From the NCBI GenBank assembly GCA_002254565.1, contig NJEG01000032.1:1-41859 (forward strand): 41,859 bases of DNA. Direction: 5' to 3'. This DNA comes from Candidatus Altarchaeales archaeon ex4484_2. Its GTDB lineage: Archaea; Altiarchaeota; Altiarchaeia; IMC4; QMZM01. The notes beneath the pieces were generated by a model. The model did no database searches, was not told where the DNA came from, and saw nothing but the letters and a program-made list of their open reading frames with translations. The position numbers and the translations under genes were made by a program. This document shows, piece after piece, positions 2,628 through 7,547 of this stretch. Each line of letters starts with the position of its first letter. The first letter of the stretch is position 1.

Positions 2628-2701
2628 TGGACCCGTCGGGATTTGAACCCGAGGCCTCTCGCATGCCAAGCGAACGATCTACCAGGCTGATCTACGGGCC
2701 C
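2628..2701 (-). tRNA. tRNA-Ala (anticodon GGC)
   Basis: The acceptor arms GGGCCCG and CGGGTCC pair with a G3-U70 wobble, the alanine identity element. The anticodon loop TTGGCAT carries GGC. The T arm is CGGGTTCAAATCCCG and the discriminator is A. No CCA is encoded. Confidence 0.94.
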
Positions 2702-2772
2702 ACAATAGATAACTATTTACTATTCCAGTATTAAATCTCCTATCTCAAATTTTAAGGAGTGAATTCAATTAA

Positions 2773-3798
<1,026 letters not shown>

Positions 3799-3813
3799 TC
3801 TTTTTTATTTATT
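3799..3813 (+). terminator. Poly-T terminator after GAPDH
   Basis: A T-rich tract begins right after the GAPDH stop codon (TCTTTTTTATTTATT). Archaeal RNA polymerase terminates on such runs without needing a hairpin. T-rich sequence continues to the next start codon at 3838. Confidence 0.45.
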
Positions 3814-3837
3814 CTCTCTTTTCTTATTTCTTTTATT

Positions 3838-4704
3838 ATGGCTGATTTTTTGATGCAGCAGATGGACTTGTTCAGTCTCGTGTGGATAGTACTTATTTTG
3901 ATGTTCCTGATCCCGGTTGTAAAGCAGAGGCTGCTGGAGGCAAGCCGGAGCAGGCTGCTGAGGCGGATAGAGAGTAAACGGGGTGCGAGGGTTATCACCA
4001 TGATACACCGGCAGGAGGGACTCAGTTTTCTTGGTCTGCCTTTCGCCAGATACATGACACTCGAAGACAGCGAGCAGGTATTGAGGGCTATCAGGTTGAC
4101 CCCGGATGATGCTCCAATAGACATTATACTGCACACTCCCGGGGGGCTGGTTTTGGCTGCCACGCAGATAGCGAATGCCATAAAAAAGCATCCTGCGGAG
4201 GTCAGGGTCTTGATTCCCCACTACGCCATGTCCGGTGGCACCTTGATTTCACTGGCAGCTGACAGGATAATCATGGACGAGAATGCTGTATTAGGTCCGG
4301 TGGACCCCCAGCTTGGCTCGATGATGAAAATGTATCCCGCAGCCTCCCTGTTGAGTGCTGTTGAGAGGAAGGGGGAAAAGAAGGTGGATGATGAGACCCT
4401 GATTCTAGCAGACCAGGCCAGGAAGGCAATGAAACAGCTTCACTCCCTCGTATGCAGTCTGCTGGAGGGTAAAATGAGGAAGCAGGATATAGACAACATC
4501 TGCAGTTCCCTGACTGAGGGAAAGTGGACACACGATTACCCGTTGAAGGTGGAAGACCTCAGACGGCTTAACCTTAACGTGGAAACAGGTTTACCTGGGG
4601 AGATATATCAGTTGATGAACCTCTACCCGCAGCCGATGAGGGTCTCTCCCACGGTAGAGTTCATCCACGAGCCCTACAGGAAACACCCCCCTAAAGCAAC
4701 CTAA
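3838..4704 (+). CDS. Membrane-anchored ClpP-fold serine protease (SDH/SppA-like, PF01972)
   Basis: This 288-residue protein has a single N-terminal membrane segment at about residues 11-28, followed by a basic stretch and a crotonase/ClpP-fold domain. Family motifs are HTPGG at 99-103 (oxyanion region), the nucleophile Ser132 in YAMSGGTL, and GPVDPQLG at 153-160. This matches the prokaryotic SDH-protease family, which resembles SppA and is thought to cut membrane-associated peptides at the inner face of the membrane. A catalytic Lys would be expected 40-60 residues after the Ser; K174, K176 and K177 lie in that range. Its substrate is unknown. It probably has its own promoter in the T-rich gap. 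Confidence 0.88.
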   Translation: MADFLMQQMDLFSLVWIVLILMFLIPVVKQRLLEASRSRLLRRIESKRGARVITMIHRQEGLSFLGLPFARYMTLEDSEQVLRAIRLTPDDAPIDIILHTPGGLVLAATQIANAIKKHPAEVRVLIPHYAMSGGTLISLAADRIIMDENAVLGPVDPQLGSMMKMYPAASLLSAVERKGEKKVDDETLILADQARKAMKQLHSLVCSLLEGKMRKQDIDNICSSLTEGKWTHDYPLKVEDLRRLNLNVETGLPGEIYQLMNLYPQPMRVSPTVEFIHEPYRKHPPKAT

Positions 4705-4764: not shown

Positions 4765-5164
4765 ATGAAAACCCTGATCTTATATAACTCAACAACCCAC
4801 GGGAACACCCGTAAACTAGCTGAGGCCTTAGCGGATGAACTGAATGCCGTAATCCAGGAGCCGGGGGGAATAGAACCCCCCGCACTCAAAGAAGCCTCCT
4901 GAAACTGGCAGACAAACTGCCTGTGGTGGGAGATAAACTCGTGTTCATATTCTCCACCAGCGGATTCAACAATTTCACAACAACCTGAGGGAAAAACTGG
5001 AGAGTAGGGGCTATAAAATCATAGGTGAATTCCACTGTAAGGGATTCCACGACGGCGGACCATTCAGGCTAGTAGGGGGAGCGGGAGAAGGGCATCCAGA
5101 TGAAAAAGACCTCAAAGATGCGAGAGAGTTCGCGAAAAACATGAGAATAGCAAATGAGTTCTAG
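4765..5164 (+). pseudogene. Flavodoxin-family gene, broken by an internal loss and frameshift
   Basis: The ATG at 4765 gives the typical flavodoxin start KTLILYNSTTHGNTRKLAEAL, with the phosphate-binding loop STTHGNT, but it stops at a TGA at 4900-4902. From ~4893 another frame reads SLLKLADKLP and FIFSTSGF and stops near 4988. A third frame then reads LREKLESRGYKIIGEF, KGFHDGGPFRL and DEKDLKDAREFA to a TAG at 5162-5164. These three pieces line up in order with one flavodoxin. The segment usually between strand 2 and LLKLADKLP (the DLIGFGSGIY region) is absent, so this is more than a single base error. The tail overlaps the next gene's start by 11 bases. Confidence 0.8.
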
Positions 5165-6509
5165 AAACAGGAAAAGTGACTTCCGGGAGTTCATACTAAT
5201 GTGCCTGCTGAAGCTGGAGCCTTTGAGCTACGAGCAGCTGTGGAGGAAGTTCATGCAGATGACCTCCTCTCTTGTTCTGGGAAGCCAGTACTTTGAGGAA
5301 TGGGGGGAACGCTTCGGTGATAAGGTGGAGGAGTTCATCACCAGCCTAGGCTTCAAGGCCAGAGAAAAACCAAGAAGAAGGAGGAAGATAAGGAAGAGAA
5401 AGGAGGGGATGGTGGAGGAAGACTTCCAGAGAGACATCAGGGAATTAATCAGGGAGGGATTAATCCAGGAGGCTGGGGGGGGAAAATACCAGTTAACGGA
5501 TGAGGGCAGACTGAAGGCAGAGGAACACAAGAACAACATGGAGAAAGGCGCCCACGTATTCCGGACCCAGATAGTATCGCCCACGGCAGCGGCCAGGAAC
5601 ACAATAATAGTGGACTTCATTCTGGCGGTATTGAAGCTCACAGCAGGGTTTATCTCAGGGAGCATAGCGTTAATAGCGGACGGAGCGGATGCGGCAGCAG
5701 ACACCTTCTCAGCCCTGATAGTGTGGGTTGGAATGAAGGTGGGGAAGGACCACATTGGCGCGCTAGTGATTATTTTGATGATGTTCCTCACTGGAGCAAG
5801 CATCGGCTTCGAGTCCCTGACCAAGCTGGCAGAGGCTTTAACAGCCGGGATCGAACCAATGAAGCAACCCTACCTGGTTATTGTTGTGGAATCTGTTGCC
5901 CTGATAGCTGCAGTAATATTGATGGTATACCAGAGGTATGTGGGCAAACACCATGGCAGCCTCACCCTCATATCGCAGTCAATAGACTCCAGAAACCACA
6001 TCTATGTCGCCTTGGCAGTAATCACGGGAGCGGGCTTCTCCCTCCTCGGAGTCTGCTTCATTGATGCGTTGATTGGGGCATACATCGCCGTCAAGATATT
6101 ACAGGACGCATTCGAGCTGCTTCAGGGGGCCTTATCTTCCATGCAAGGAGAGGAAACAGATTTCTCGAAATACAATATCCCCCTCGAGGGACACTACCAC
6201 GGCTATAGGATAGAGTCCTTCCGGAACTGGATACTCTACACCATGAGAGAAGACGGCCTGAAAACCAGGGAGGAACTGATTAAATCGCTGGAAGAGGTCT
6301 ACAGGCCCGAGTACGTCCCCATCCTAAGCGAGTTCAGCTTCAGCCTGGGAGAGGGATTCGACTTCAGGAAAGAATTCGATGAGCTGGTGAAGCCGTTAAC
6401 GGAGAAAAAATACATCTCACGGAGGGGGGAGGAATACGCTCTGACTAGGGAAGGTGGGGAAAGAATCCACAGGGTGCTGGAGAACCTGAAATTCCACACC
6501 AACAAATAA
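5154..6509 (+). CDS. CDF-type cation transporter domain flanked by winged-helix domains
   Basis: The protein has 451 residues. Residues ~10-125 look like a PadR-like winged-helix region with a basic patch (KPRRRRKIRKRK) and end in YQLTDEGRLKAEEH. Residues ~140-335 are a six-helix cation diffusion facilitator core. The helix-2 metal site is D179-x3-D183 (GADAAADT). At the matching helix-5 site the usual H-x3-D is reversed to D278-S-R-N-H282. Residues ~345-445 form a second winged-helix-like region ending in YALTREGGERIHRVLENL. The usual cytosolic CDF C-terminal domain is replaced. A metal-sensing role for the added domains is inference. The ATG overlaps the end of the flavodoxin remnant. Confidence 0.82.
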   Translation: MSSRNRKSDFREFILMCLLKLEPLSYEQLWRKFMQMTSSLVLGSQYFEEWGERFGDKVEEFITSLGFKAREKPRRRRKIRKRKEGMVEEDFQRDIRELIREGLIQEAGGGKYQLTDEGRLKAEEHKNNMEKGAHVFRTQIVSPTAAARNTIIVDFILAVLKLTAGFISGSIALIADGADAAADTFSALIVWVGMKVGKDHIGALVIILMMFLTGASIGFESLTKLAEALTAGIEPMKQPYLVIVVESVALIAAVILMVYQRYVGKHHGSLTLISQSIDSRNHIYVALAVITGAGFSLLGVCFIDALIGAYIAVKILQDAFELLQGALSSMQGEETDFSKYNIPLEGHYHGYRIESFRNWILYTMREDGLKTREELIKSLEEVYRPEYVPILSEFSFSLGEGFDFRKEFDELVKPLTEKKYISRRGEEYALTREGGERIHRVLENLKFHTNK

Positions 6510-6550: not shown

Positions 6551-6832
6551 ATGGCTGAGAAAAAAACAAAAGAAGAGACCTATACGGAGGAATTTGAGGT
6601 AGACGGCAGCCAGGTCGTTGAAAAAGTCAAGGAACTGATTCAGGCAGGGAATGTCCGCAAAATAATAATCAGGAAACAAGACAACAAGGTGTTGATGGAG
6701 ATTCCGTTAACGGCTGGCGTAGCAGTAGGTGGCATAGTCACGTATTTCGCAACGCCGCTAGCGGTCCTGGGTTTATTGGTTGCCATCATAGCGAAAGTCA
6801 AAATCCAGGTAGTGCATCCAGTAGAGAACTGA
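6551..6832 (+). CDS. DUF4342 domain protein
   Basis: This 93-residue protein starts with an acidic, Lys-rich lead. It then has the DUF4342 signature: VKELIQAGNVRKIIIRK, a short beta hairpin, EIPLTAGVAVGG, a hydrophobic segment at about residues 58-82, and KVKIQVV at the end. DUF4342 proteins are small, probably membrane-associated, and of unknown function. It follows the CDF gene by 41 bases and precedes another membrane-protein gene by 23 bases, so the three may be co-transcribed. Confidence 0.85.
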   Translation: MAEKKTKEETYTEEFEVDGSQVVEKVKELIQAGNVRKIIIRKQDNKVLMEIPLTAGVAVGGIVTYFATPLAVLGLLVAIIAKVKIQVVHPVEN

Positions 6833-6855
6833 TTGAACCAGACTTCATAGGTTTC

Positions 6856-7395
6856 ATGGCCGAATCCGCCGTAAACCTCCCCAGGGAAGCGTTGGAGGGA
6901 AATGTCTTCGCAGTCTCCATCCTCCTGATTGCATTCTATATCTCCATTGTGGTAGTGAACAAACTCACTGAATACATCATCCTGTTCCTGAGGCGGGTTA
7001 TATTGTTGGTGATTGTTACATTAGCCTTCTACCAGTTCACGCTCATGTTCCTCAACAAGCTTAGTGTTGAGGGAGCGACCGCAGACACACTACTATTCGG
7101 GGGGGATGGGTTGCTCATCGGAGTAGTTGTGGTATTAATTGCAGTGCATGCAGCCCTCTCATCCTTCAAGAAAACCCCTGAAGAAAACGAGGAGGTGGAT
7201 GAGGAGGAACCAGAAGAGGGGGAGGGGAGGAAGAACATAAGAGCTGGATGTCGGTTAACGCCCCGAGGGAGGACAAGAAACTGGGTGTTGCAGTCGCCTA
7301 CCTTATCGTGGCAGAGTTCGGGGTCATCTCCTCCAAGACCATCTCAGCCCCTGACGTGCAGGTGGGGATTGGATTCTTCATCGTGTTCATGCTAG
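6856..7395 (+). CDS. Membrane protein, probably the first part of a frameshifted gene
   Basis: Residues ~15-100 contain three hydrophobic segments (VFAVSILLIAFYISIVVV; ILLVIVTLAFYQFTLMF; GLLIGVVVVLIAVHAAL) followed by an acidic linker rich in E. After the G-run at ~7218-7227 the frame becomes low-complexity and Ser/Arg-rich. The coding-like signal instead continues in the frame of the next entry, so the last ~55 residues are probably not native. No family is recognised. It likely belongs to the operon starting with the CDF gene. Confidence 0.5.
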   Translation: MAESAVNLPREALEGNVFAVSILLIAFYISIVVVNKLTEYIILFLRRVILLVIVTLAFYQFTLMFLNKLSVEGATADTLLFGGDGLLIGVVVVLIAVHAALSSFKKTPEENEEVDEEEPEEGEGRKNIRAGCRLTPRGRTRNWVLQSPTLSWQSSGSSPPRPSQPLTCRWGLDSSSCSC

Positions 7396-7547
7396 CAGCA
7401 TTATTCTTCATAAGCCAAAGCTACAGCGACATCAACAAGGGCATAAGGCATTTCATAGTGGTTTTTATACTGGGCGCAGTTTTGTCCATAGTCCTGGGAC
7501 ACCTCTGGGGAGGATACAGCCTGCAGGAACTCCTATCTGAGGCATAA
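7248..7547 (+). CDS. Membrane protein, probably the second part of the same broken gene
   Basis: This 99-residue frame from ATG 7248 has two to three membrane segments (LGVAVAYLIVAEF, VGIGFFIVFMLAALFFI, IVVFILGAVLSIVLG). In this frame the codons before the ATG read GEEEHKSW and join smoothly to the acidic linker of the preceding entry. That suggests a frameshift within the G-run at 7218-7227. After the TAA at 7545-7547 the same frame continues with hydrophobic coding-like residues (FITDSMVAFVTGIVVS) to a TAG at 7614-7616, suggesting a nonsense change as well. Confidence 0.5.
   Translation: MSVNAPREDKKLGVAVAYLIVAEFGVISSKTISAPDVQVGIGFFIVFMLAALFFISQSYSDINKGIRHFIVVFILGAVLSIVLGHLWGGYSLQELLSEA

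Follow-up and report, generated by a model that had tools for sequence, protein, structure and literature searches.

The gene at positions 5,154 to 6,509 (plus strand) of the window, that is, the whole 41,859-nucleotide stretch analysed here, encodes a divergent CDF protein of 451 amino acids with the layout winged helix–CDF membrane domain–winged helix, as judged from the ATG open reading frame, Pfam matches and AlphaFold2 models. It combines a six-helix CDF fold, a D179-D183 / D278-H282 quartet in the A-site, the loss of both the TM2-TM3 loop and the ferredoxin-like tail, and terminal winged helices homologous to each other. With moderate confidence, drawn from sequences and models, we read it as a probable dimeric divalent-metal exporter in which the winged helices would serve dimerisation and gating on the cytosolic side. 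A frame artefact was rejected, since the 5154-6509 frame is open and the layout is the same in relatives.

The membrane domain occupies residues 143–330 (5580–6143). Pfam Cation_efflux (PF01545) matches residues 151–329 (E 3.2e-18; 65.7–66.6 bits against a gathering cut-off of 26.6), and a phmmer search of solved structures aligns residues 144–329 with FieF/YiiP (E 6e-6). The full-length AlphaFold2 model, computed from an input of 30 aligned rows and with a mean pLDDT of 82.8, places membrane helices at 143–168, 171–195, 199–229, 239–267, 270–296 and 303–330. Foldseek ranks YiiP and ZnT1 first (best E 2.4e-5), and re-alignment gives Z 21.0 and 2.4 Å over 183 residues for ZnT1 (8xma; model residues 142 to 333) and Z 18.3 and 2.9 Å over 187 residues for YiiP (8f6h), so that the six-helix fold is common to the window protein and the CDF family (TC 2.A.4). 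The NCBIfam superfamily model TIGR01297 was narrowly missed (81.8 bits, cut-off 82.35), and the window protein falls outside the NCBIfam model for DmeF, the group that we take to be CDF clade 12 (8.8 bits, E 0.93, cut-off 250).

Within this domain the TM2 half of the A-site reads D179-x3-D183 (5688–5702), as in FieF, but the TM5 half reads D278-S-R-N-H282 (5985–5999), where YiiP/FieF and ZnT1 have H-x3-D. The phmmer alignment pairs D278 with the His of the FieF motif and H282 with its Asp, and D278 and H282 both lie inside the predicted helix 270–296. The earlier note had described helix 5 as carrying D-S-R-N-H in place of H-S-R-x-D, a reading that a normal H-x3-D elsewhere would have undone; a pattern search of the whole 451-residue protein found D-x3-H once (278), D-x3-D at 90 and 179, and no H-x3-D. 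The description is right for the D-x3-H clade of the family set out below, a second, Asgard-only set having D-x3-N or E-x3-H instead. The ligand set is that of the DD-HD site of YiiP/FieF (three Asp and one His), with the His of the window protein shifted by one helical turn.

The protein differs from YiiP/FieF and ZnT1 in three further respects: the TM2-TM3 loop is missing, a winged helix stands in place of the ferredoxin-like tail, and there is an additional N-terminal domain. The regulatory metal sites of YiiP sit in the loop and the tail, and tail-less or otherwise odd CDFs are known. At the place of the missing loop (residues 195–199; 5736–5750) canonical CDFs have about 14 extra residues with an HPYGH-type motif. 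The loop is absent from all 63 aligned family rows, and HP[YF]G occurs in none of 82 family members as against 25 of 30 canonical CDFs, the latter counted with a slightly wider expression. With the loop absent and the tail exchanged for a winged helix, it is the regulatory parts that have been lost and the transport site that has been kept, if in altered form.

Where Montanini et al. (2007; PMC1868760) treat TM5, they give H-x3-D, or D-x3-D in Mn-CDFs, plus two odd clusters; D278-x3-H282 departs from this rule, to which published exceptions exist. Their modified CDF signature (TM2, a 20–25-residue loop and a G) is lacking in the window protein and is found in 1/82 family members and 26/30 canonical CDFs, whereas its TM2 half alone is present in the window protein, in 32/82 members and in 30/30 canonical CDFs. 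The order D-x3-H in TM5 is already known and not unprecedented, since Barber-Zucker et al. (2017; PMC5703985) list HH-DH as the A-site of clade 12; that clade shares the TM5 order but has H-x3-H in TM2 where the window protein has D-x3-D, and none of the quartets that we noted in that paper is DD-DH.

The N-terminal domain (residues 1–140; 5154–5573) is modelled as helices 5–21, 26–64 and 86–100, strands 104–107 and 111–114, and a long helix 116–140. Its helices 2 and 3 are joined by a Lys/Arg-rich linker (residues 68–85; 5355–5408) that is mostly of low confidence, with pLDDT below 50 at residues 73–84. Pfam HVO_A0261_N matches at 35.2 bits (cut-off 35), with HTH_45 and HemN_C slightly under their cut-offs, and the PadR-type fold matches lie at Z 11–12: PadR-like 4esb (Z 11.6, 3.0 Å, 93 residues) and an LmrR variant (Z 12.4, 3.3 Å, 95 residues), alongside Sso10a 1r7j (Z 10.8, 2.6 Å, 89 residues). 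The C-terminal domain (residues 345–448; 6186–6497), which occupies the place of the ferredoxin-like domain of other CDFs, repeats the order of elements (helices 345–366, 372–383 and 404–417, strands 421–424 and 427–430, helix 432–448). Modelled alone it reaches a pLDDT of 80.7, and its best re-aligned fold matches are the PadR regulators 5h20 (Z 10.9, 1.9 Å, 89 residues) and 5zi8 (Z 10.8, 3.0 Å, 92 residues). Plain Foldseek with the C-terminal model returned nothing at E ≤ 0.001; a profile of the C-terminal alignment run against solved structures put designed helical-repeat proteins on top, which we take as chance, and Sso10a at E 0.005.

Both domains show the winged-helix fold with a long last helix that marks PadR proteins (5h20 for the C-terminal domain, 4esb for the N-terminal one), and both resemble PadR-type regulators (LmrR, 4esb, 5h20) and Sso10a in fold at Z about 10–12. 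They differ from these regulators in being fused to a membrane domain, in an acidic rather than basic wing across the family, and at the level of Pfam: PadR (PF03551) gave no match up to E 1 with the whole protein or with either terminal piece, and the ten families that 30 aligned members match do not include it. The two domains align with each other by hhalign with a probability of 97.2 and E 4e-11, against a best E of 0.2 among 30 column-shuffled controls and 0.048 for the reversed control. Judged from models and profiles, then, the protein has PadR-type winged helices at both ends, homologous to each other. Structure prediction had been proposed as the check on the earlier note's suggestion of winged-helix-like regions at both termini, and the suggestion stands; the LT-x-EG signatures that it pointed out are LTDEG at exactly 114–118 and LTREG at exactly 430–434.

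A search for the same architecture, also proposed in that note, uncovered a family in distant archaea and a few bacteria. Used as the only query, the window protein brought up no relative in a scan of genome contigs; an alignment-based scan succeeded. A protein search of 394 genomes yielded full-length relatives in three Asgard genomes of one family (L008–L010, L034–L036), and a profile from seven of those proteins matched 87 of 227 Asgard genomes at E ≤ 1e-15; among the Asgard matches listed, nearly all are relatives with the long layout (most at E < 1e-40) or CDF-only matches. The contig scan that used the TM5 motif as its pattern gave 31 loci. Their archaeal labels are Bathyarchaeota, Sigynarchaeota, Hodarchaeota, Lokiarchaeota, another Asgard record, Methanomicrobia, Theionarchaea, Thaumarchaeota, Methanobacteriaceae and another Euryarchaeota record, and their bacterial labels WOR-3, Thermotogaceae, Aminicenantes, Bacteroidales, Spirochaetes and Trebonia kvetii. 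Most member records are metagenome bins and may be mislabelled; Trebonia kvetii and Candidatus Marispirochaeta associata are given as strains. Closest to the window protein are members from Sigynarchaeota (L103, 51%), WOR-3 (L111, 50%) and Bathyarchaeota (L104, 49%). All 30 aligned members match Cation_efflux at E ≤ 0.01.

Across 82 family members the A-site quartets (TM2-TM5) are ED-DN (42), DD-DH (29), ED-EH (9), HD-HD (1) and ED-DH (1), while 30 canonical CDFs have HD-HD (22), DD-ND (4), ND-HD (3) and ND-DD (1). Of the members, 62 were found by profile and not by motif, and these comprise 10 with D-x3-H, 9 with E-x3-H, 42 with D-x3-N and 1 with H-x3-D; the presence of D-x3-H among them means that the inversion is not a product of the motif search. 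D183 and D278 are invariant in seven distant members. D183, D278 and H282 are invariant in 30 members, a set picked by a motif that contains D278 and H282, so that conservation there is partly by design, the TM5-motif scan selecting for D-x3-H. Winged-helix profiles, built partly from sequences that they then count, find matches at both ends of the membrane domain in 38 of the 82 members, on the C side only in 37, on the N side only in 1 and on neither in 6, as against 0/30 canonical CDFs. Every member of the D-x3-H clade has matches on both sides, many of these members having been used to build the profiles, and the profile may simply be too insensitive to pick up the N side in the D-x3-N set. 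On this comparison of sequences, the winged-helix ends and the altered TM5 pair are traits inherited across a family rather than peculiarities of the window protein.

When a membrane-domain tree is calculated without the four site columns, a branch with support 100/93 separates 30 D-x3-H proteins from all the others, and a single change is enough for the winged-helix layout as against the canonical set. A single origin of the layout is possible on this tree, which is unrooted. The proteins look like a branch of the CDF family not described before, and a literature search, to which subscription papers were mostly beyond reach, turned up no CDF described as having winged-helix ends. One possible intermediate is L091 (1–1041), an Asgard piece at a contig end that combines the winged-helix layout (at the C-terminus) and the lack of the loop with a canonical H-x3-D / H-x3-D site; in the tree its long branch lies next to the canonical group, and its placement is unsure.

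Several members elaborate the layout. Tandem forms of 679–688 aa from Hodarchaeota are arranged WH-CDF-WH-CDF-WH (L121, 5002–7038; L123, 879–2927; L124, 4936–6990; L126, 2567–4630), and such a single chain is possibly a built-in pseudo-dimer. The upstream CDF-like half is the weaker one (iE 3.5e-27 in L126, 4.7e-13 to 7e-9 in L121, L123 and L124), and with the membrane-domain profile alone it is convincing only in L126. One Asgard set (about 573–633 aa) has an additional hydrophobic N-terminal region. Pfam finds a PEMT domain in 2/30 members and an ICMT domain in 1/30, and L120, L129 and L133 carry a C-terminal extension with a methyltransferase-like look.

Within its own phylum the window protein stands apart. 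Its genome (1.4 Mb, 83% complete) has no other Cation_efflux match, and a search of the phylum's other genomes brought up no ortholog; Cation_efflux matches occur in 13 of 29 genomes, this one included, so in twelve others, and in neither congener. Twelve of the 14 other Cation_efflux loci gave a membrane-domain match, and none of these 12 gave a winged-helix profile match below E 3. Two loci from two genomes of the phylum, L179 and L181, encode a different CDF protein in open frames of 607 and 614 aa that runs, by eye, into an apparent SPFH/HflK-type protease-modulator domain. The GAPDH and SDH-protease genes upstream of the window gene are syntenic in the congener G001, in which the protease is not followed by a CDF gene; this synteny led us to reject a mis-binned contig. 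The same synteny without a CDF gene, together with the patchy spread of the family, makes horizontal acquisition of the gene the likelier course, as far as gene order and distribution can tell.

The gene is preceded on the same strand by a coding stretch (4767–5164) that begins MKTLILYNSTTHGNTRKLAEALADEL, presumably flavodoxin-like, which is split across three frames and whose end overlaps the start of the CDF gene; it is either a pseudogene or the result of indel errors in the assembly. A DUF4342 gene (PF14242, E 1e-29) lies 41 bases downstream in the region 6551–7547 (plus strand), followed by overlapping membrane-type open reading frames (6856–7395 and 7248–7547, plus strand) that look like one frame-broken gene. 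Elsewhere in the family, methyltransferase-type genes lie directly upstream of L103 (700–1026), L112 (1115–1660), L116 (351–953) and L119 (5053–5628), and an ICMT-type gene directly upstream of L114 (5505–5984). The Asgard members L009 and L010 are adjoined by a gene (2688–3938 and 213–1145) with membrane segments and, by eye, helix-turn-helix-like repeats, which is conserved between both genomes. A conserved operon partner was rejected, as no neighbour gene recurs generally across the family.

The presence of PadR-type domains raises the question of DNA binding, to which the earlier note had suggested that transport might be coupled. The net charge of recognition helix plus wing averages −2.3 (N) and −1.9 (C) in the 30 aligned members and +2.1 in 21 PadR regulators of archaeal genomes, namely those of 30 loci in which the script located the motifs needed to place helix and wing (Mann-Whitney p 2e-7 and 7e-7, the relatives not being mutually independent). 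The window protein has net charges of −3 (N) and 0 (C). These acidic recognition helices and wings favour a structural or regulatory role over the reading of DNA, and on their sequences ordinary DNA binding by the window protein's winged helices appears unlikely; the coupling proposed in that note is therefore not supported. The ED-EH (E-x3-H) clade is the exception, with a basic C-terminal wing (mean +2.3) that would leave room for DNA binding in that clade.

In one alternative the protein is a membrane-embedded metal sensor, metal binding in the CDF domain altering the pairing of winged helices that then bind DNA or a transcription partner. The transcription-regulator fold of both terminal domains would suit such a role, as would the strongly basic linker of the N-terminal domain, the basic wing of the ED-EH clade and the weak profile matches of the N-terminal domain to metal-responsive repressors (4o5v, E 0.0005; AdcR 3tgn, E 0.001). 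We nevertheless consider a sensor unlikely, given the mean acidic charge, the retention of the transport-site residues and the lack of a generally recurring neighbour gene that might be its target. A bolder form of this idea, an exporter fold turned membrane metal receptor whose inverted site senses a divalent cation, whose four winged helices per dimer control a gene or protein directly, and which has been transferred across archaea and bacteria, seems to us a degree more doubtful still.

Winged helices often act as protein-interaction modules, and this use, the other suggestion of the earlier note, fits better than DNA binding does. It could take the form of a transporter whose winged helices dock a dedicated cytosolic partner, for delivery or as an enzyme, rather than gate alone. 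The methyltransferase- and ICMT-type genes upstream of some members and the PEMT- and ICMT-type domains within others lend this some colour, but the family has no conserved partner gene in common and no methyltransferase adjoins the window gene, and we regard dedicated docking as quite improbable. It is very unlikely that the protein is a degenerate, non-transporting CDF whose membrane domain merely anchors the winged helices. The missing loop and ferredoxin-like domain would fit such decay, as would the weak upstream half of the tandem members and a Cation_efflux score far under those of the 13 other over-cut-off matches in the phylum (65.7 against 82 to 172 bits); yet the quartet is kept in open frames from records labelled as about ten phyla, and D183, D278 and H282 would hardly be retained in a dead site.

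In the exporter reading that we prefer, the D179-D183 / D278-H282 quartet would still bind a transition metal, although the inverted TM5 pair could have altered or abolished metal binding. The winged helices, taken to be cytosolic by analogy with other CDFs, would pair in the dimer, much as PadR winged helices pair via their outer helices, and would assume the dimerisation and the metal- or partner-dependent gating carried out elsewhere by the ferredoxin-like domain; they are probably not DNA binders in the usual way.

The usual description of a CDF has TM2 supply an acidic/His pair and TM5 either H-x3-D or D-x3-D, with regulation left to a ferredoxin-like tail. The family described here offers a natural experiment on which CDF parts serve transport, which only control it, and what sets the choice of metal, and the set needed for comparison is at hand in the D-H, D-N and E-H variants of TM5 and in L091 with its ordinary H-D site.
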